Shown one piece after another: positions 747 to 11,739 of a stretch of 15,307 nt of DNA. A model generated the notes under the pieces. That model searched no databases. It worked only from the letters and a program-made list of their open reading frames with translations, and had not been told where the DNA came from. Each line of letters starts with the position of its first letter. Position 1 is the stretch's first letter. Source of the stretch: a bacterium (GTDB lineage Bacteria; Patescibacteria; JAEDAM01; Absconditabacterales; Absconditicoccaceae); assembly GCA_030528665.1 (NCBI GenBank), contig JAUMYK010000015.1:1-15307 (forward strand), written 5' to 3'. Position numbers and translations under genes: made by a program.

Positions 747-768
747 CTTTTTTTTGGTTATCTTTTGA

Positions 769-783
769 GAGAATTTAATTCTC
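769..783. repeat. Short palindrome just upstream of the large gene start
   Basis: GAGAATT-T-AATTCTC has 7-bp arms around one base and ends 6 bases before the ATG at 790. It occupies the place where a ribosome binding site would sit, so it could act as an operator or as a hairpin that limits initiation. No clear Shine-Dalgarno sequence is present. Confidence 0.45.
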
Positions 784-789
784 ATAAGT

Positions 790-3700
790 ATGAATATGAA
801 AAACTTTCTGCTTCCTTGGCTTAACAAAGAAAATGAATCTTTGACTAAACTCCCAAATAACCCCCTAAATAAACTCCAACTAAGTTCAAGTTTTAATACT
901 CCTAATGGGGGGTTTTTAGGGAAAAAAGCCCCTATAACTCCTATCCCTCATACTGTTCCTATCACGCCAGTACCACAAACTTCTACCAACCCAGTACCTA
1001 TGACACCAGTACCGCAACACATTCTCCCACAAATGCCAAAGTGACCTTTGCATTTGAGAGGACAACATACGGTCATGCCAAATGCGGAGTCAGGATTTAC
1101 GGAGCTAAACATGGGCAATAATTGAGTTGAACAAAAAACAAGGGAAGAGTTAAATACAGTAAATAAACAGGAAGAACTAAAGCAATTTGCCGAATTTGCA
1201 AGTAAGGTATGATCTTTACGCAATTTAAATCCAGAGTATTTGGCTGATCAATTTCCTCTTTTAAGTAGTAATGCCGAAGCTCGAGAATATCTTCAAAGTG
1301 ATATAGAAAAAATTTCAAACCAAGAAAAAACAATGGAGGAACTGCTTTCGGTATATAGTAAACATTTCCCAGGCTACTTGAGTGAAGAATGACCTCAAGA
1401 ATCTCAACTAGGATTTTGGGAGAAGCTCTGAAATAATTTCCTGAATGGAGGACAAACCTATGCAAAGGGAGTAGAAGGATTGCTTAATAAATTTGGTGAT
1501 CTGACTATAGGAACGCAAGACTCAGGGGCTGAGTGGGAATATCTTACCCAAAAGTATAATGTGCAGTATCCTGCTCAAATTGATCCAGAAACGCTTAAAA
1601 AGGAGAGAGAATACCTGAAACAACATCCTGAAGTCCTTAAGGATTATGGGACAACACTCTCGCATGATGTTCTCAATGTAATTGAATGAGGAGCAGATGT
1701 GATGTTTAGTATTTGAGCTCCAGTACTCAAGGGGGCTATGGCGGTAGCTGGTGCTACAGAAGCTGGGGAATGGGCATTATCAGGGCTGGATAAGGTATTT
1801 GGAAAAGCGGGTGAAATTGTTAATCATCTCCCAGTACTTAAACAATTTAGGGATAGTCTCTCTGAGGAAGATAAGAAAAGATTTGATAGTTTTATAGGAG
1901 GATCAGTGACAGCACTTTTTTGAGGACTAAAAGGGAAAAGGAATCTGATCCAATCCAAGAACCCTGCTCAGTTTAAGAAGAATTTCATCAATTTTGTCAA
2001 AGAAAATAGTAATCCTCTGGAGATCATCAATAATTTTCAGGAGAATGTTTTGAATATCCCAAAAAAATTCTTGCCTACAAGACAAAAAGCACAAACAGTC
2101 TCAGGAGGAAAGAAAACTACTCCTGTGGTCGGAGAAGTAGTCACCAAACCACAAAAGCCAAGTATTATAGAAGACTGGTCAGGGGTAACGCAAGACCTCA
2201 AACAAAGGGTACAAAATAATGCTTATGTCCAAGAATACGCTAAACCAATGCTTGAGGAGATCGACCGCGATGGCGTACCAAGCAATAAAGATGAGTATAT
2301 CAATAGACACCTTGAAACCAAGCTCCAAGAGATCGCAGAAGGGCTCGAAGAGCAGAAAAACTTGATCAAAAATGAAGGTGGAAAGGTTTACAAACAGATC
2401 AGGGAAACCAATGTACCTATTGAGCTTTGAGATGCGAAGACAAAAGTAGAAACACTTCTGAATGATAAACAAATCAGCGTAAAGGATGGAAGACTGAATT
2501 TTGATCAAAGTGCAATCATTAAAGCAGAAGATGCAACCGCACTCCAAAGAGTCTACGACAGGATAGCGAGTGGGAAAATCACGAATGCAGAAGAGCTCCT
2601 CAATCTCAGAAAAGTAGCCTCTGACCTCTCTAAATATGATAAAGGCGTAAGTGGAGATGGGGTCTCACTTATTAGAGGAATGAGAAAGGTAATCGATGAG
2701 ATTGCTAAGGAGCAAATTCCAGGACTGAGGGAGGCAGATGCTCACTATGCAGATATGATTGATGTCCTTGATGAGATGCAGGAGGGGATAGTATATAAGG
2801 AAGTAGCAAGAAAAGGGCAGCTCAAGGATAATGCAGTAAATATCCTGAAAAATCTGAATAATCCCAACAGACTTCCTCTCGCAAATAGGCTAGAAAAATA
2901 CTATCCAGGACTTAAGGCACAGATCGAAGCAATCACGATGCTTCCTGAGATCGTCAAAGTCTATACTCAAAAATCCAAGCTCAGTAAATGGCTGGAAAAT
3001 AATGTGGTACAGATAATGATTGCTGGGGGTGTAGGTGGACTTACGAGTGGACTGGGTGGAATCCTTGCAGGTGCTGGAGCTGGGATGATCAGTAAATTGT
3101 CTCAGAACATCTGAAAAAGCGTGATTAAAAAAATGATGAGTAAACAGAGTCCGAAAGCTCTGGAGTCGATGGCAGAAATCCTGAAAAAACAACAAGAGAG
3201 AAAAGAATTGACTGCAGGAGAAAAAAGTCAACTCAACCAATTAACTACAAAGATTATCGAGGAAGGCGAGACGATCAAAAAATCGAAGGCTGAACAGCAA
3301 CAGCGAAATCAGATTAAAAACTATTTGAATAAAGAATTTGGGCAAGCTTTACCTCTCAAAAAGGATGTTCCAAGAAGCTTTTTACCTGCTGGGGAAAAAC
3401 TTGTAGCAGGGGAGGGGTTTGTTAAAAAAGAAAAATCAATCCTTGAACTCGATAAAAGACCCAACATTTTGTGAGACTCAATAGCAAGAAACAGCAAGAA
3501 GATAGACAAAAGACCTGAAAACATCATCGGACTCAAACAACAGAAGACTCCATCAGTACAGTTTAGTGAGGGAATTGAGAAGCTGAGTAAGGGAGAGTTG
3601 CCTGCCAACAGGACGCTCTCACTCGGAGAGCCTCAGGGAAAATTAAAAGAAGTGTTATGAAACGATGATCTTTTCATCACCCAACGCACCTTGAAAACAA

Positions 3701-6700
3701 AATTGAAACAGCATCAGCTCAGTTTTGATGATCTGCAAGGACTCGAGAAAGCTATCGCAGAACCTGTAGTAATTTATGAAGCTGGACAGCATGCAAAATC
3801 AATCATTGTCGTCACTGACCTTAATAAAGGGAACGAGAAAATCGCAGTTGCGATAGGATATGATAGGAAAGGATGGGCGGAAGTTAACGAGATCAAAAGT
3901 ATCCATCCTAAAGACCTCAATCGTCTCCTCGATGAAGCAGAAGGAGGAAAGATCAATAAACTCCACTTTGAGGATACAAAAAAACTTCAAGCTTGGCTTG
4001 GCTCAGTCACTCTCAAAGAGCAACAGCCCACTACCATAGCTTGAAGAATACCTAATGATAACCTTTTTTTTAAAAAAAGCAAGTGAAAAAACATTTTGTG
4101 AGACACGAGGATACACAACAAAAAAGAAAATGATGTGTCATCAAGCATCATTGGACTCAAAACAATGAAAAAAACTTGAAATCCTGAGAAAAGTGAGTAT
4201 ACTATGGGTGGTAAAAAAGAGACCGCCCAGCCGGCTGTGAGCTTCTCCTCGGAGAATGAACCAGCATTGGGTGTCTCTTTTTTCGCTAAAGAGCAAAAGA
4301 TTGCCACAGACAAGAAACATCTCAAGGGGCAATGGCAGATAGAAAGGAATGGAGAAGTGGTTACCAGCAATGTCCGTAAGGGAGATGAGTTTAGTAACAA
4401 AGTAGATTTTGGAATAGAAAAAGGAGAGGAGCAGTACGCAAAAAATCTAGAGAACGTCATTCAAGGAGAAAAGTCGGGAATAATAGGTAAAGTAGAAATA
4501 AAAGGGAAACAAGAAGAAATCAGACTCACGGAGAAATCTTTTCTCCATATCTTCAAAAAGCATAGAGTCTTTAATCCCAATAACCTCATAGCAACGGTAA
4601 ACCGTCCAGACTATACCATAACGAATGTTACCACTAAAGATACCTCAATCGGACTCCAACTGAACAACAAGAATAAGATCAATCTTTTCAAAAAATTGGA
4701 TGATCAGCACTTTTTAGTCGTATGAGCCAATAAGGAGGCGGGTTACTATGTGGCAACCCATTTTGAGGTTGTAGATCGTGCGGGAAATAAGCTGGCTGAG
4801 TATCTCAAAAGAGGCGATCCCTTAGATCAGAAGACAAAAGATTTTGTTGTTCAAAACACCCCTCAAACCAAAAACATTCTCTGAGATACGAGGATTTATA
4901 AGAAAGTGAAGTCTGAAACTAAATACCAACTCGCAGACCAAACCAAAAGCGAGAACTTCAAAAAATGGTTTGGAGACTGGGAGAAAGATCCAAAGAATGC
5001 GAGCAAAGTCGTGAATGAGAAAGGAGAGCCGTTGGTAGTGTATCACGGAACGGATTCAAAATTTTATATCTTTGAGCAGATGGATGCAGGAGGAGGGTTT
5101 CCAGAGGCATCATATTTCTCAAGCAATAAATTAGTCTCCGATACCTACTGAAAGAATATAATGGAGGCTTATTTGGATATTAAAAATCCTTATGAATTTG
5201 ACGCAAAGGGATGAAATTTTAATGATCTTTTTGATGATTTGTATAGTTCTATGCACCATGCTAAAAATAATTGATATGATGGTATGATAATTAAAAACTT
5301 TGATGATGATTGGGCTCAAAAATGAGGATGACCTTTAGGGAATACTTATATCGTCTTTGAACCGAACCAAATCAAATCTGCTACAGACAACATCTGAAGC
5401 TTTGATCCAAATAATCCTGACATTAGATACCAAAAGCACTGAGTAGCGAATCCACTTGAGAAAAACATCTCAGCACAACAAGCAACCCAGCTAAACAACA
5501 TCAGAAACGGTAGAAGCGTACAGGAACTCGCAGATCACTATGGTATTGATATAAAAACTGTAGAGATAATCACGACTCCTGAAGGACTCAAAGCCTATGG
5601 AAAGTATGGAGACTGAGTGATTACCCTTGCTGAAAAAATCAAAGAGGGGACAGCACCGCACGAACTCTTCCACGCTACCTTTGACCTCGTAGATCAGGGA
5701 AGAAAGGAAAGCATCCTCGAGGCGATAAGGAAAGAAAAAAAGCTGGACACACTCAACGCTGAGGAGTTTTTGGCGGATAATTTCGCTGAATACTTTAGAA
5801 CCGGAAGGATGAAGGGAGAAAAAGTCGTAGGAAATGTAGGAAGAAGTCTGAGCAGTAAACTGATGGGGATGGTCAAGGAGTTTTATCAAAGGGTAAAGGA
5901 CTGGATTACAGGAGTAAGTAAGAACAGGAGTCAGGTTAAAAAGCTTTTTGATGAAATCTTGGATGGAGAAGTAGATAGAGAGATGTTAGGAGAAATGTTG
6001 GGAAATAAAAAAAAGGTGGCTACTGACAGCCGTGCACAAGGTGCACCGTCACTGCAACCACCTCTTTCAAGGTTTAGTATACAGATAACAGACAAAAATT
6101 CAAGTTTTTACAAACAAAAATTTGATGCCTTAAAAACTAAACTCAAAATAAATGGATTATCTGCTAGAGAGTTTATAGATGAAATCAAGCTTATTACAAA
6201 AGATAAGTGAAATAGCGGGTATATGATCAAATCAAAAAATGGAGAAAAAGCATCAATCCGTATTTCAGACCATTATGCAAATGCTCAAAATAATAAAAAT
6301 CGTTGAGAATTTGGTAATAATGCGAGTATTGTCATAAAAATACCAAGTAAAAAGAAATCGTTTTTCAAAGCTGATAATGAAGTTAATTTGATAGAATATG
6401 TATATAAGCCAGAAAATCTCACTTTAAAGAAAATGGAGAATATCCTAGACTCTTTTAAAGAATGGATTGATACTACAGAATACAACGATAAATGATATGA
6501 TCTCAAGCATATTTCAACGAAAGCTAGCCTAGAAAATGGGGAAGTGAAGTATCAAAGAGTCTATCACGGCTCTCTGTATGAATTTGAGAAATTTGATAGT
6601 AGTCATATGGGGAAAGGAGAAGGGGCTCAAGCTCACGGTTGGGGGCATTATGTAGCAGTGGATAAGGAAGTAGGGAAAGCGTATGCGAAAGACTGAAGCC

Positions 6701-7074
6701 TCTATGAGGTAGAAATCCCTGATCCAGTAAAATCAAAGACTCCAACAGGTAAGAATTATTGGGAACAACAATGAAAGGTAAAAAGTAGAGCTGTTGATGC
6801 TATAGTCAAACAGCTGAAAAAATGATTGCCTCAGGAGAAGATAATAGAACTAGATGAACTTATAGACAGTTGGGAGAGTGGCTATGATCATAGTATTGAA
6901 TGATGAAGAATGTATAGGATAATAGCCAATACGCTTTGAAGCGATAAAAAAGCATCGCAATTTTTACAATCTCTTGGGTATGATGGAATCCATTATGATG
7001 GAGGAAGAGATTGAGAGGCTTATGTAGTCTTTGATGATGCTAAGCTGGAGATCAAGAAGCATACGAAATTATAA
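790..7074 (+). CDS. Giant polyvalent phage protein with nuclease-like, ART and metallopeptidase domains
   Basis: One frame of 2,094 codons with roughly three dozen TGA codons, ending in TAA at 7072-7074. Seen in order: P-x-T-P-x-P-Q repeats (residues about 48-80); helical regions to about 737; a Gly/Ala-rich hydrophobic segment (738-772); a MuF C-terminal-like or nuclease-like region (968-1075, QLSFDDLQGLEKAIAEPVVI); a second nuclease-like domain (1234-1358, HIFKKH then VNRPDY); an ART domain (1389-1547, VVYHGT, SYF, YIVFEPNQIKSA); a zinc metallopeptidase with HELFH at 1624-1628 and later EEFLADNFAEYF; an unrecognised region (1761-1917); and a second ART-like domain (1925-2094, VYHGS, YVVFDDAKLEI). 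Polyvalent proteins of this kind in phages are thought to travel in the virion and act on the host after injection. Domain calls come from motif reading. Start 790 was chosen as the first ATG; 796 is the alternative. Confidence 0.85.
3615..3631 (+). repeat. Short hairpin in a linker of the giant gene
   Basis: GCTCTC-ACTCG-GAGAGC gives perfect 6-bp arms. It sits in the linker coding region just before the MuF-C-like domain, preceded by a CCTG/CAGG inverted pair at 3601-3612. It is the smallest of three palindromes inside the gene, all in linkers, and on its own could be chance. Confidence 0.4.
4213..4283 (+). repeat. 71-bp palindromic element inside the giant gene
   Basis: The outer arms AAAAAAGAGAC (4213-4223) and GTCTCTTTTTT (4273-4283) are exact reverse complements. 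Inside are CCCA/TGGG (4226-4229 with 4268-4271), GCTG/CAGC (4234-4237 with 4262-4265) and a tight central hairpin TTCTCC-TC-GGAGAA (4243-4256). It is translated in frame as the linker before the second nuclease-like domain. The nested, imperfect arms recall in-gene palindromic insertions such as Rickettsia palindromic elements, or attC-like structures. That comparison is inference. Confidence 0.6.
6013..6065 (+). repeat. 53-bp palindromic element inside the giant gene
   Basis: Nested arms AGGTGG/CCACCT (6014-6019 with 6058-6063), TGAC/GTCA (6024-6027 with 6048-6051) and GTGCAC-AAG-GTGCAC (6032-6046), preceded by an A-run. It is translated in frame as the linker between the metallopeptidase region and the unrecognised domain. 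Its layout matches the element at 4213 (A-run, nested arms, linker position), although the sequences differ. Confidence 0.55.
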
Positions 7075-7078
7075 AGAA

Positions 7079-7109
7079 AAATCTGACACTTAAGTCAGAT
7101 TTCTTTTTT
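7079..7109 (+). terminator. Rho-independent terminator of the giant gene
   Basis: AAATCTGAC-ACTTAA-GTCAGATTT, a 9-bp stem with a 6-nt loop, followed by CTTTTTT. It starts four bases after the TAA stop and should end the giant gene transcript. Confidence 0.85.
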
Positions 7110-7263
7110 CTTTTCAGCTAAACTTCAGCTAAAATCAGATTTTTTATACGATTATCGTATAAAAGAAAGTGAACTAGAAAGCACTTTACAGTAGTCTAGC
7201 ATAGCCATCACTCAATTTTCTATTTTCAGCTAGAAAGATTTTGATTTGAGCTAGAAAGTGAAT
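7110..7263. repeat. Convergent intergenic region with iteron-like repeats
   Basis: No gene is visible between the terminator at 7109 and the P63C stop at 7379. Five related elements share CAGCTAAA or CTAGAAAG cores: CAGCTAAA at 7115 and 7126 (11 bp apart), GAACTAGAAAG at 7171, CAGCTAGAAAG at 7227 and GAGCTAGAAAG at 7248 (21 bp apart). Spacings of one and two helical turns suggest sites for a protein binding one face of the DNA. Possible roles are a replication origin, an attachment region or a regulator site. None is shown. Confidence 0.5.
7142..7164. repeat. 23-nt perfect inverted repeat among the iterons
   Basis: TTTTATACGAT-T-ATCGTATAAAA, 11-bp arms around a single T. It lies between the second and third iteron-like repeats. 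It is long enough to be a dimeric protein site or a hairpin, but no T-tract follows that would make it a good terminator. Confidence 0.65.
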
Positions 7264-7274
7264 TTTTGACGATC

Positions 7275-7298
7275 AAAAAAGCCCCTCTCATCGAGGGG
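7275..7298 (-). terminator. Rho-independent terminator of the P63C gene
   Basis: Read on the minus strand: CCCCTC-GATGA-GAGGGG, then CTTTTTT. A 6-bp G/C-rich stem with a U-tract, 80 bases after the P63C stop codon at 7379. Bases 7299-7378 between them hold a small ACACT/AGTGT hairpin and no gene. Confidence 0.85.
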
Positions 7299-7378
7299 TG
7301 TACACGTACACTGAGGAGTGTAGTGATTAGGGGGAGGATTGTAAGGGGGATTGATTTAAAGTTCCAATCTGTTTGTTT

Positions 7379-8977: not shown

Positions 8978-9370
8978 TTAGATTACACTCCCAAACTGAT
9001 CAAGGAGATTGGTTACATAATCTATACAGTGATCAGGTTGCTCATCTAATGGTTTGGTTTTATGTTTCCATATATTGAGGAGCCTCAAATTAAGTGCATC
9101 TGAACCTTTAAGAAGTTTTTCAATATCCTTCCCCTGATCTATGAGGAGGCAGATTTTTTTATCTAGCCAATCTAGCACATCTCCAATCATTACAGGGTGT
9201 CAGTTGATTTCTTTGATTTCTGAGATTGGTCGCTCATCTCAGCGACATAAACGATAGAGGAAATCTTCTCCATCTGGTTCTTGTGCCTTTATGATACATC
9301 TACACCCAAATGTAAGTTCCTTATTAGCCATCTCTGCATAGATGACTTTGATCTTTTCTTCTCTTGTCAT
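8978..9370 (-). CDS. Unknown phage protein, 130 aa
   Basis: ATG at 9370 to TAA at 8978-8980, 130 residues with TGA glycines in LCR-G-DER and EIN-G-HPV. The N-terminus MTREEKIKVIYAEMANKELT, followed by FGCRCIIK and later HPVMIGDVLDWLDKK, resembles a set of small phage proteins I have seen only as hypothetical. The C-terminal part is helical and charged. Three cysteines near residues 23, 25 and 45 are present, but there is no clear zinc-finger spacing. It sits between the methyltransferase and the 76-aa gene in the same direction. Function unknown. Confidence 0.75.
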
Positions 9371-9486
9371 TCTATCGAAAATAAAGGTTAAAAGTCTAAT
9401 TTAATGTGTTCGTGATGCTACGAATACATCTGATCGCCTCCGACAACATGCAGGGGGATATATCGTTTTGGTATACCCCTATTTTC
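9371..9486 (-). promoter_or_regulatory. Structured spacer between methyltransferase and 130-aa genes
   Basis: About 115 bases without a gene. On the minus strand it can form GGGG-TATA...TATA-TCCCC and TTCGT-AGCATC-ACGAA hairpins, then AGACTTTTA shortly before the AGAATG start at 9370. It may be a leader controlling the small genes downstream or an RNA processing region. No convincing promoter is seen. Confidence 0.35.
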
Positions 9487-9512
9487 TAATTACCCCGAAT
9501 TCGGGGTAATTA
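9487..9512. repeat. 26-bp perfect palindrome at the methyltransferase stop codon
   Basis: Arms of 13 bp run from TAATTACCCC into a central GAATTC and back. The TAA stop (9490-9492) and the last six sense codons of the methyltransferase lie inside it. No T-tract follows on either strand, so a simple intrinsic terminator is unlikely. A binding or methylation-responsive site is possible. Confidence 0.65.
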
Positions 9513-10695
9513 ACATCTCCCTGAATATATGAGCGATCACATCGACCGTCCAGCCATTCCCTAGCATCTTATAACGCTGGGTATTGCTGACGCCTGCGGT
9601 GTAGTCGTCAGGCAAGGTCTGCAACCTCTCGCATTCTATAGGTGTGAGTTTACGGATATGGAATTGATCCATTACCATAGAGTCTTTTTGTACGCTTGTC
9701 AGGCAATTTGCTTTGCCTGAATTATTAGCCTCTAAAGTCTGCTCAGTTGTTCAATCGGATCTATATCTACCTCTTTGAGCCACCGCGAGGTAATTGTTAT
9801 GTTCTCGGCAGTGGCTAGAGAGTGTAGGGCTTTTGTCCTCAAATACTCCTCAGGAGTTGAACCCTCTAGGTTTTTGCACTATTTTTATCCCTTCTCACTT
9901 ATTCGTGGTCAATGTTGGAGACTTATCTCCGTCATATACATTCCCATTCATTCCTCTGCCACTGGGATTAGTATTGAGAATAACCTTTGGCCCTCTATGT
10001 CCTCATTGTGCAGTAGTGAGAGCGTAGGATTTCTCTTTACTATCCGCAGCTCTGAGTAGGGACTCGTAACCATAGCTTTTGAGTCTCTCCAATACCTGAG
10101 GGGAGAGGTAGTACTTAGGGTCTACCTCAGACTCTAGGATGTCTCCTAGAAAAATTCCCTTATCTGCTGGCTGGCTGATGTGGACCTGGGAGTAGGTTCA
10201 GTCTTCATTCCTTTTCCCTACTCGGTAGAGCCTTTTTCTCCTTTGGGCTGAGAGGAGAGCTGAATTAATCTCCACCGGTTGGATGCCGAACAGATGCTCT
10301 GAGATGATATTCTGCCACTCTTTTTTCATTTTAACGTTCTCAAGCAGGAAATATCTCGGCTTCGCCTCGTTTAGAATACGGACAAATTCAAAGAAGAGTT
10401 TAGAGCGAGGATCATCAAAGTTCAGCCCCTTGCCTGCTGTAGAGAATCACTGACACGGAGATCATCCGATGAGGAGGTCTAGTGTATATCAAACCTCCTC
10501 ACAAAAATCGTATCAGCTTATTTCTTCAACAGATCAAATCTGTCAAACATTATCTCGATTATTGGAGCTTACCTGCATTGCATACTTGTCAATCTCGCTA
10601 GCGTAATAGCTATCAACAGCTATCCCAGCCCTCTCTAGGGCTAATCTCCCACAGCTCATACCATCAAAGAGGGAGAGTACGGTTATTGGGTACAT
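9490..10695 (-). CDS. C5 cytosine DNA methyltransferase
   Basis: ATG at 10695 to TAA at 9490-9492, 401 residues. It transfers a methyl group from S-adenosylmethionine to carbon 5 of cytosine in DNA. Motif I is VLSLFDGMSCGRLALERAG at the N-terminus; motif IV is LIGGSPCQGFS with the catalytic Cys; motif VI is YFLLENV; motif VIII is QRRKRLYRVG; motifs IX-X are RKLTPIECERLQTLPDDY and YKMLGNGWTVDVIAHIF. In motif IV two invariant glycines are TGA codons (10462-10464 and 10447-10449). About eleven TGA codons occur in all. Length and motif order are those of a complete enzyme with a target-recognition region between VIII and IX. No restriction endonuclease gene is adjacent, so it probably works as an orphan phage enzyme protecting phage DNA. 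Its start lies 29 bases after the RNA region. Confidence 0.93.
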
Positions 10696-10723
10696 TCTGA
10701 TTTCTAATTTTTTTTCTAAAATT

Positions 10724-11016
10724 CAAGGAAGATGGGGATTGCACCCATAAGCAGTAGCCACTTTCTGAACAAACGAGAGTTTTTTTTGAGTTCAGTCTTT
10801 ATCTCTAAATCCTTATGTTACAAGTCTACTACTGAGCTTCCTTGATAGCTCCCACTGGCTCATAGTTATGACCTACAACCAGTGGGTAGTTTAGAGACCA
10901 TTTCGGTCTTTTAGAGCTATCCTGACTGTAATTCCTGTGCACAGGATACGAGAGCAGGCTGTCAGTTATACTCATGCAGGGAGTATGAACTAATATGTCA
11001 GTCTACCTACAATAGT
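10724..11016 (-). ncRNA. Candidate large structured RNA (downstream helices)
   Basis: Non-coding on both strands. Read on the minus strand it folds into consecutive domains with long perfect helices: AGTT-c-ATACTC/GAGTATAACT (10964-10991); CTGAC/GTCAG enclosing TCCTG-TGCA-CAGGA (10922-10965); GATAGCTC/GAGCTATC (10844-10921) enclosing AGACC-GAAAT-GGTCT and CCCACTGG/CCAGTGGG with TCATA/TATGA inside; CAAGGAAG/CTTCCTTG (10724-10844) enclosing CAGTAG/CTACTG, CTGAAC/GTTCAG and a tRNA-like T-arm ATGGG-TGCAATC-CCCAT. This density of complementary arms is not expected by chance. Its setting (phage, beside a tRNA gene) recalls the GOLLD and ROOL large RNAs, but I cannot match it to either. The strand is inferred from the tRNA-like elements and the operon direction. 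Confidence 0.6.
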
Positions 11017-11019
11017 AGG
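11006..11019 (-). ncRNA. Small hairpin after the tRNA-like gene
   Basis: CCTAC-TATT-GTAGG on the minus strand, a 5-bp stem with a 4-nt loop, 13 bases beyond the tRNA-like 3' end. It may mark tRNA processing or be the first helix of the large RNA. Confidence 0.4.
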
Positions 11020-11031
11020 AATCAAAAGTTG

Positions 11032-11115
11032 AGCAGGGGCGAGGATTTGCACCTCGCAATTACCTTTTGTCCTCAGGCTTTTAGGACGATGCGTCTACCT
11101 ATTCCGCCACCCTGC
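11032..11115 (-). tRNA. tRNA-Leu-like class II tRNA, anticodon uncertain
   Basis: The minus strand gives GCAGGGTGGCGGAATAGG at the 5' end, matching the leucine tRNA start (GGCGGAAT-GGTAGACGC D-arm). It has an extended variable region, a T-arm CGAGG-TGCAAAT-CCTCG and a CCCTGC acceptor 3' strand pairing with GCAGGG. Total about 84 nt; CCA is not encoded. Two things are odd. The T-loop reads TGC where TTC is expected. The anticodon arm (TCGTC-CTAAAAG-CCTGA) pairs poorly, while GTCCT/AGGAC would pair well with a 9-nt loop. I therefore do not assign an anticodon. It could be a functional phage tRNA, a tRNA-like part of the larger RNA, or a decaying gene. Confidence 0.65.
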
Positions 11116-11117
11116 AT

Positions 11118-11220
11118 AGCTCCTCCTTAGAGGAGACGTAAGTAGATTACAACCCCATCAGAGGCACGAAGAACCGTGAAAGCCTACAAGAGGAACAGGC
11201 ACAGTTCTTAATGCCCCTGA
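11118..11220 (-). ncRNA. Stem-loops upstream of the tRNA-like gene
   Basis: On the minus strand, a 63-nt hairpin (11158-11220) has TCAGGGGCA paired with TGCCTCTGA (one G-U), then AAGAAC/GTTCTT, GTG/CAC and CCT/AGG toward the tip. Next comes CTCCTC-TAAG-GAGGAG (11118-11133), just before the tRNA 5' end. They follow the stop codon at 11233 closely and may be the upstream part of the same large RNA, or processing and terminator-like hairpins; there is no U-tract. Confidence 0.5.
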
Positions 11221-11232
11221 TAGTAAGGGACT

Positions 11233-11739
11233 TTACTCTTTAATTCTGATATTTTTGGAGTCTACACCAAACTTCTCAGCAATCTGCTCTAAAGTGAGCT
11301 CTGTGATCTGAGGAGTTTGGGCAATTGGGCGGATTTGGTTCCAAGTAATTCTTTCAAAATCTGATCAACCTTTAAACTCATCTTCTGTCTCTTTGTTTAC
11401 ACAAATGTATCTAAAATCTTTTTGGTTTTCGTATTCTCCAATATAAATTCTCTTTTCCCATTTCTGATCGTCATTATCTCTTACTTCAACTTCCTCTCAA
11501 AAGAGATAAAGAGGACGGAACATATTATACTGATATAACCAATTCAAATTCCCCTTTGCATCTATCTTGTTTACTCTCACTTCTCTTTTTCAGAAAGAAG
11601 CGATTTCTGCAGTCACTCAGAAGAGATGATCCATCTCCCCTCTAGTATTCCAATTGACTATATCTCTCCAGTCTTTTCCAAACTCAGCGATAAATTCCGC
11701 TTCGGTCTTAAATCTTACTTTTTGTCCTACTTTGAACAT
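11233..11739 (-). CDS. Unknown phage protein, 168 aa
   Basis: ATG at 11739 to TAA at 11233-11235, 168 residues, with four TGA glycines (LF-G-VTA, SF-G-KRE, LF-G-EEV, KG-G-SDF). It starts MFKVGQKVRFKTEAEF, a beta-rich opening like small SH3-type or KOW-type barrels. It has a charged middle (GEEVEVRDNDDQKWEKR) and ends TELTLEQIAEKFGVDSKNIR, a helix-turn-helix-like tail of a kind often seen at the end of small phage early proteins. The DNA-binding suggestion is weak. The gene is 25 bases downstream of the 118-aa gene and is the last gene before the RNA region. Confidence 0.75.

Follow-up and report, generated by a model that had tools for sequence, protein, structure and literature searches.

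An 83-nt RNA element at the core of a gene-free gap in the window, the 15,307-nt stretch of phage-like contig analysed here, belongs on comparative sequence evidence to a family of tRNA-like RNAs that lack an anticodon arm and are widespread in phages. Members combine a free acceptor stem, a D-arm resembling that of tRNA-Leu, an insert instead of the anticodon arm, and a T-arm with a 6-bp stem and a TGCAAAT loop. The acceptor-like stem is free in both length and sequence, and the insert is often predicted to form an H-type pseudoknot. The family has no match in Rfam 15 and, among the matches listed, is enriched in phages over cells.

The contig reads TGA as glycine (code 25), and the methyltransferase motif appears as DLLIGGSPCQGFS under this reading only. 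With code 25 the last base of the upstream gene's stop codon is 11233 and the methylase starts with an ATG at 10695, which leaves the 537-base interval without a gene that an earlier note on this DNA had described. Pfam domains among the ten proteins of the window comprise C5 methylase, Gp157, ERF, IstB-like ATPase and P63C. A single 2106-aa frame (code 25) occupies 754-7074 of the plus strand, and stretches of it, judged by eye, may resemble ADP-ribosyltransferase/MuF-type phage proteins. In the viral contigs searched, the upstream 168-aa ORF shares a common C-terminal tail only, the methylase matches distant methylases only and the 216-aa ORF has no relatives. A protein search with the 168-aa ORF returned one homologue, which came without genomic context, while the 216-aa and ERF proteins gave zero matches across 192 Gracilibacteria-class genomes, in a search run without a positive control. 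The gap and its predicted structures are as follows.

Positions 10696-11232, minus strand: gene-free gap of 537 nt, flanked by the 168-aa orphan ORF (11233-11739) and the C5 DNA methyltransferase gene (9490-10695), code 25.
Positions 11157-11221, minus strand: long interrupted hairpin from the piecewise fold, upstream of the tRNA-like element; no homologue found.
Positions 11033-11115, minus strand: tRNA-like element of 83 nt, placed by its match to model R1 and its stems, acceptor GCAGGG (11115-11110) / CCCTGC (11038-11033).
Positions 11091-11109, minus strand: D-arm of this element, TGGCGGAATAGGTAGACGC, an exact match to the family D-arm.
Positions 11058-11090, minus strand: 33-nt insert replacing the anticodon arm, predicted H-type pseudoknot.
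Positions 11039-11057, minus strand: T-arm GCGAGG-TGCAAAT-CCTCGC with a 6-bp stem and a G where psi55 would be.
Positions 10933-11019, minus strand: small hairpins from the piecewise fold (11019-11006, 10991-10964 and 10946-10933).
Positions 10844-10921, minus strand: three-way junction GATAGCTC...AGCTATC from the piecewise fold; no homologue found.
Positions 10724-10844, minus strand: second T-armed element from the piecewise fold, acceptor CAAGGAAG/CTTCCTTG.

Covariance model R1, built from the 39 rows of alignment A1 (described below) with the window excluded, recognises the 83-nt element at 68.4 bits (E 4.6e-17), and its next-best match within the window reaches 11.3 bits. The element displays the 6-bp T-stem and TGCAAAT loop of the family, directly adjoining a 6-bp acceptor. 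Its insert ends in AATT and thus departs from the AT ending that is usual, rather than defining, for the family (111/131). The pseudoknot of the insert is composed of the helices GTCCT (11087-11083) / AGGAC (11073-11069) and GCCT (11078-11075) / AGGT (11065-11062), the second of which has 4 bp only, one of them G-U, and it is equalled in 11 of 2000 shuffles. Alternatively the insert folds as 5 bp closing a 9-nt loop, as against the 5 bp and 7-nt loop of an anticodon arm. The tRNA-like gene proposed in the earlier note is thus retained as a tRNA-like unit at 11115-11033 but cannot be called as a tRNA, since ARAGORN calls zero tRNAs in the window and the Rfam tRNA model, in permissive mode, scores the embedded unit at 19.4 bits, below its cut-off of 29. 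The recognisable tRNAs which that note had set against its own reading did not appear at 11033-11115 either.

An exact search of IMG/VR with the window T-arm returned 56 stretches, 46 of which carry the family D-arm (at most 3 mismatches) within 320 nt upstream at widely variable spacing. The acceptor strands flanking the T-arm matches differ in sequence, yet are self-complementary. The family was sampled as 131 distinct pairs of a D-arm (at most 1 mismatch to the consensus) and the first downstream TGCAAAT, with stems not required; D-arms less than 12 nt from a locus end and exact duplicates were skipped and near-identical phages were kept. Forty of these pairs came through the T-arm query, in which part of the T-stem is fixed, and 71 viral pairs through the D-arm query alone. 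Base pairing holds in 92-97% of the 131 pairs at acceptor positions 1-6 and in 95-98% at the six T-stem positions; after permutation of the 3' strands these shares drop to 40-57% at acceptor positions 2-6 and to 54-84% at T positions 3-6. Positions outside 2-6 and 3-6, respectively, are almost invariant G-C. Each of the four Watson-Crick types is represented at acceptor positions 2-6 and T positions 3-5. The 71 viral pairs found by D-arm alone display the same behaviour, with 92-97% versus 40-59% permuted at acceptor pairs 2-6 and 93-99% versus 65-81% at T pairs 3-6. The acceptor extends to at least 7 bp in 94/131 pairs and falls below 5 bp in 16/131, including 5 of the 8 cellular pairs. Removal of these 16 gives the 115-member set used for ARAGORN calls and nearby tRNAs, in which ARAGORN makes 1 call, an internal tRNA-Lys.

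Outside the window, 47 members have inserts of at most 61 nt, and 39 of them make up alignment A1, whose rows were chosen with an acceptor of at least 5 bp; L096, L126, L127, L147, L148, L206, L240 and L256, mostly near-duplicates, were removed by hand. In A1, 99.0% of cells are paired, against 36-43% for slid structures, 162 cells are double-changed, against 43.9 after shuffling, and both-sided change occurs at 12 of the 16 pairs. Covariation among homologues was the check that the earlier note had proposed, and the homologues of the 11033-11115 unit covary strongly. Its interpretation of the gap as structured RNA, possibly of a new large class, is partly supported: the new-class idea holds for the 83-nt central unit, for which homologues were found that form a class without an Rfam model. 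A second type of element also occurs. Type II elements have a T-loop interrupted between TG and CAAAT by a conserved ACTATACGAG...CTCG helix and an additional insert. The type II motif was found at 60 places, 17 of them without a D-arm and 3 without a partner; complete distinct elements number 36, with an acceptor of at least 5 bp in 31. Examples include L189, L213, L169 and L440.

The inserts span 23-227 nt (median 75) in the 131 pairs and 23-192 nt (median 71) in the 115 members, with the AT ending present in 111/131 and 100/115, respectively. They fall into 110 sequence clusters among 131. H-type pseudoknots whose last strand adjoins the T-stem are enriched over shuffles: a score of at least 22 is reached by 30/60 inserts, the window included, versus 12.5 (maximum 17) in 12 shuffles, and a score of at least 24 by 22/60 versus 7.2 (maximum 11). 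In a second set of 27 inserts, which overlaps the first set by 7 members, the corresponding counts are 10/27 versus 1.4 (maximum 4) in 50 shuffles and 7/27 versus 0.6 (maximum 2). No pseudoknot whatever was found in 8/60 inserts. Most of the insert is common to SPP1 and the herellevirus Grass, both B. subtilis phages (44 nt at 93%), as are the two helices of its pseudoknot. By eye, the inserts of L101, L111 and L091 contain a second, ordinary TTC-type T-arm, like nested tRNA-like units.

The D-arm probe, in which type I comprises only elements with TG[CT][AG]A[AG]T or CGCAAAT loops, returned very different mixtures from cells and viruses. Among the 118 cellular matches listed, 102 are ARAGORN tRNAs and 3 are type I elements, the rest comprising 4 that combine a TTC T-loop with a long insert, 6 cut by locus ends and 3 unassigned. 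Among the 120 viral matches listed, 21 are tRNAs and 76 are elements (69 type I and 7 type II), with 7 TTC loops with an insert, 5 cut by locus ends and 11 unassigned. The T-loop starts with TTC in all 121 tRNAs scored, of 123 among the D-arm matches listed; the uniform loop of the type I elements of the probe is partly a matter of construction, because only those loop patterns were counted. In the 192 Gracilibacteria-class genomes, the R1 search scored at most 20 candidates per genome under strict filters and may thus miss elements; its best match among those listed is 43.8 bits, compared with 68.4 for the window. Twenty loci of this class were opened, of which 19 hold a tRNA-Leu recognised by ARAGORN and one, G122:C199, holds a true element with a TGTAAAT loop and a 112-nt insert. 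The family is therefore also present in the Gracilibacteria class. P100-like phage is described in PMC12282133, as far as that source was covered, as having abundant unannotated RNAs near tRNAs; Listeria P100 (131384) contains no element in 1-50000 and 100000-131384.

Member phages include SPP1, phi3T, BUCT082, SPbetaL4, Grass, phiSHEF16, Pd_22F, R24.2, H1-Guo, a Latilactobacillus phage and a Listeria phage. Their host groups are Bacillus, Paenibacillus, lactobacilli, Enterococcus and Listeria, to which the code-25 phage is added. The SPP1 element lies at approximately 3423-3531 of the record, between genes 9 and 11 in the head gene cluster. None of 11 annotated named-phage records carries an RNA label on the element, although in phi3T and in the Listeria phage it overlaps a short CDS annotated as hypothetical. 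In BUCT082 and phi3T the element stands at the start of a 1.7-kb yonN-yonK stretch that has one to three small CDS and a DUF3800-VIII RNA inside. In the SPbeta-like loci L145 (2972-4690) and L143 (2963-4685) the 1.7-kb yonN-yonK stretches resemble each other, with the element at one end and the DUF3800-VIII RNA towards the other. Three of the 40 member loci in the Rfam scan contain ROOL (L122, L134 and L208), and in L208 the element follows it at a distance of 13 nt. The Listeria contig L255 displays the order rliG, element, mcrA RNA and a terminator-like hairpin; the aligned part of rliG ends in the first acceptor strand of the element, and mcrA lies more than 100 nt downstream. The rliG RNA is part of prophage A118 in strain EGD-e, according to the portion of PMC3556495 consulted. 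A recognised tRNA occurs within 2.5 kb of 27/115 members, and some members are housed in tRNA islands.

The minus strand of the gap folds at -174.2 kcal/mol (z -4.92), a value equalled by 0/100 shuffles. Among 202 sliding 300-nt folds with 20 shuffles each, the gap takes the 6th and 9th ranks (z -4.7 and -4.5). Strong folding is not confined to the gap, because 9301-9750 on the minus strand (z -7.2 and -5.9) and 7051-7350 (z -5.1) give lower values. The 9301-9750 region runs from the last part of the methylase gene into the gap that follows, and CCCTGCATG is found there near 9445 and also in the main gap near 10980. The earlier note had counted at least eight helices, and the piecewise folds agree, resolving them into hairpins, the tRNA-like unit, a three-way junction and a T-armed junction. 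The second T-arm it had reported is likewise present, as ATGGG-TGCAATC-CCCAT at 10748-10732 in the second T-armed element, where GAGA/TCTC and CTGAAC/GTTCAG form a candidate pseudoknot by eye. Membership of this second element in the tRNA-like family is unproven, and it is kept outside because R1 gives it 9.1 bits only (E 0.69).

Homologues of the gap outside the 83-nt central unit were found neither in 50,697 phage records nor among the matches listed for 142 loci. Five of the 192 Gracilibacteria-class genomes have short gap matches: in three the D-arm stretch is matched, in one the A-rich end and in one a 26-nt segment. The last corresponds to window positions 10984-10959, ACTCCCTGCA(T/A)GAGTATAACTGACAG, and is identical at 25/26 positions to 569-594 of the Gracilibacteria-class contig L431. 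Its core, CTCCCTGCATG, is complementary to an acceptor strand of the window element, and it recurs near 5806 of phage contig L197, directly after the element of that contig.

Several known RNAs resemble the family in part. ROOL (RF03087) and GOLLD are, like the family, phage RNAs often located near tRNA islands, and GOLLD linkers are able to hold tRNAs, as stated in the sections of PMC12286853 consulted; ROOL shares the loci L122, L134 and L208 with members. In contrast to both, a family member is a separate fold of approximately 80 nt. The earlier note had matched nothing in the gap to GOLLD or ROOL, and the Rfam search agrees. No Rfam model has a match at gathering in the window, ROOL, GOLLD, tmRNA and RNase P included, and these four have none at E<=10 in 10650-11300, on which ground ROOL/GOLLD identity of the element was rejected. 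A tRNA-like end with pseudoknots is also found in tmRNA. The element has instead a tRNA-type D-arm, and its 33-nt insert is too small for a tag ORF; this, together with the missing Rfam match, led to rejection of tmRNA identity. The YrlA Y RNA (RF02553) is, as presented in part of PMC7790460, a bacterial non-coding RNA with a tRNA-like domain. Its model finds nothing in the window and nothing at gathering in 40 member loci, and YrlA identity was rejected; in four member genomes it gave only matches far below the cut-off of 69 bits, the best at 35.9, and each of the four loci opened is a tRNA array. The tRNA-Other of the B. cereus group is alike in being a pseudo-tRNA inside a larger RNA, unused in translation, and unlike the element in its Trp anticodon and in being described, in the portion of PMC3399842 consulted, from that group only. 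The Lacto-int motif, entered in a table of PMC2864571 as a doubtful candidate from 'Lactobacillales, phages' without an Rfam number, is comparable by that entry alone and may overlap the family. The Listeria RNAs rliG (RF02415) and mcrA (RF03010) flank a member in L255. Among the matches listed in a literature search of titles and abstract openings there was no description of the element, and an earlier one is possible.

The whole explanation considered best, which approaches but does not reach the probable, joins a tRNA-like phage family to processing or protection of a non-coding transcript that is read through the elbow. Its mechanism is put forward tentatively, from the sequence pattern. 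Host machinery that binds the tRNA elbow would read the element, the elbow and the coaxial acceptor/T-stem being recognised by RNase P and possibly by RNase Z or other tRNA-handling proteins. The element might then be excised from the phage non-coding transcript that hosts it, or might protect that transcript. The fast-changing insert would be the specific part, contacting a host factor, and the remaining structured pieces of the gap would be neighbouring modules on one transcript with the element. A fixed acceptor plus T length of 12 bp is a property of tRNAs, and the free acceptor length counts against this mechanism, because acceptors of at least 7 bp (94/131) on a 6-bp T-stem do not fit it. 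Also counting against this explanation are the 110 insert clusters in 131 members, which disfavour a single shared target, the AATT end and the 4-bp second pseudoknot helix of the window insert, the 8/60 inserts lacking a pseudoknot, the tRNA neighbours of no more than 27/115 members and the 16/131 pairs whose acceptor falls below 5 bp. As a decoy, the element would instead be an anticodon-less tRNA mimic, itself uncleavable, that occupies host anticodon nucleases, toxins or modification enzymes. The retained elbow with a replaced anticodon arm, the phage enrichment and the divergence of the inserts are consistent with such a role. However, many tRNA enzymes might bind the element less well because of the G at the psi55 place and the unconstrained acceptor end. 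A decoy is judged unlikely, and a role in processing or stability appears the better reading.

The element could also be the folding domain of one large ornate RNA that takes up the whole 537-nt gap, comparable to ROOL/GOLLD or to the SPbeta-like 1.7-kb region. The member 13 nt past ROOL in L208, the member between rliG and mcrA in L255, those at the end of a 1.7-kb CDS-poor stretch with a DUF3800-VIII RNA (BUCT082, phi3T) and the capacity of GOLLD linkers to carry tRNAs (PMC12286853, in the part consulted) point in this direction. Against it, the other gap pieces gave no homologues in the searches above and ROOL occurs in only 3/40 member loci scanned. The tie of the element to ornate RNAs is one of neighbourhood only, and this reading is quite unlikely. 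The two remaining readings, both very improbable, stay closer to tRNA genes. Decay of tRNA-Leu genes into vanishing pseudogenes with chance folds would account for the tRNA-Leu type of the D-arm and for the members within tRNA islands, but is already contradicted by the strong compensatory change in both stems, and the common T-loop change, the AT before the T-stem in 111/131 and the pseudoknot enrichment also oppose it. A normal tRNA-Leu of type II with unusual features, or a tRNA containing an intron, that ARAGORN overlooked would agree with the 19.4 bits of the Rfam tRNA model and with the TTC T-loop plus long insert of 7 viral and 4 cellular D-arm matches listed. The insert, however, forms 5 bp with a 9-nt loop or a pseudoknot rather than a 5-bp/7-nt anticodon arm, the T-loop is unlike that of TTC-loop tRNAs, and ARAGORN does recognise tRNA-Leu in 19/20 of the Gracilibacteria-class loci opened. 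A decoding or intron-bearing tRNA was accordingly rejected as the identity of the element, which has no ARAGORN call, no anticodon arm and a T-loop that differs from TTC tRNAs.

In a further reading, whose points taken jointly fall somewhat short of probable, the tRNA elbow frames would hold interchangeable, often pseudoknotted payloads, in the second type also within the T-loop. They would be shared by unrelated phages of one host and form a regular building block of large non-coding phage RNAs, alongside ROOL, rliG, mcrA and DUF3800-type RNAs. The family may be a common phage tool, and phages would then possess tRNA mimics in addition to tRNAs. Some members are found in easily manipulated model phages, SPP1 among them, and the family offers a handle on the roles of ornate phage RNAs and of tRNA islands.
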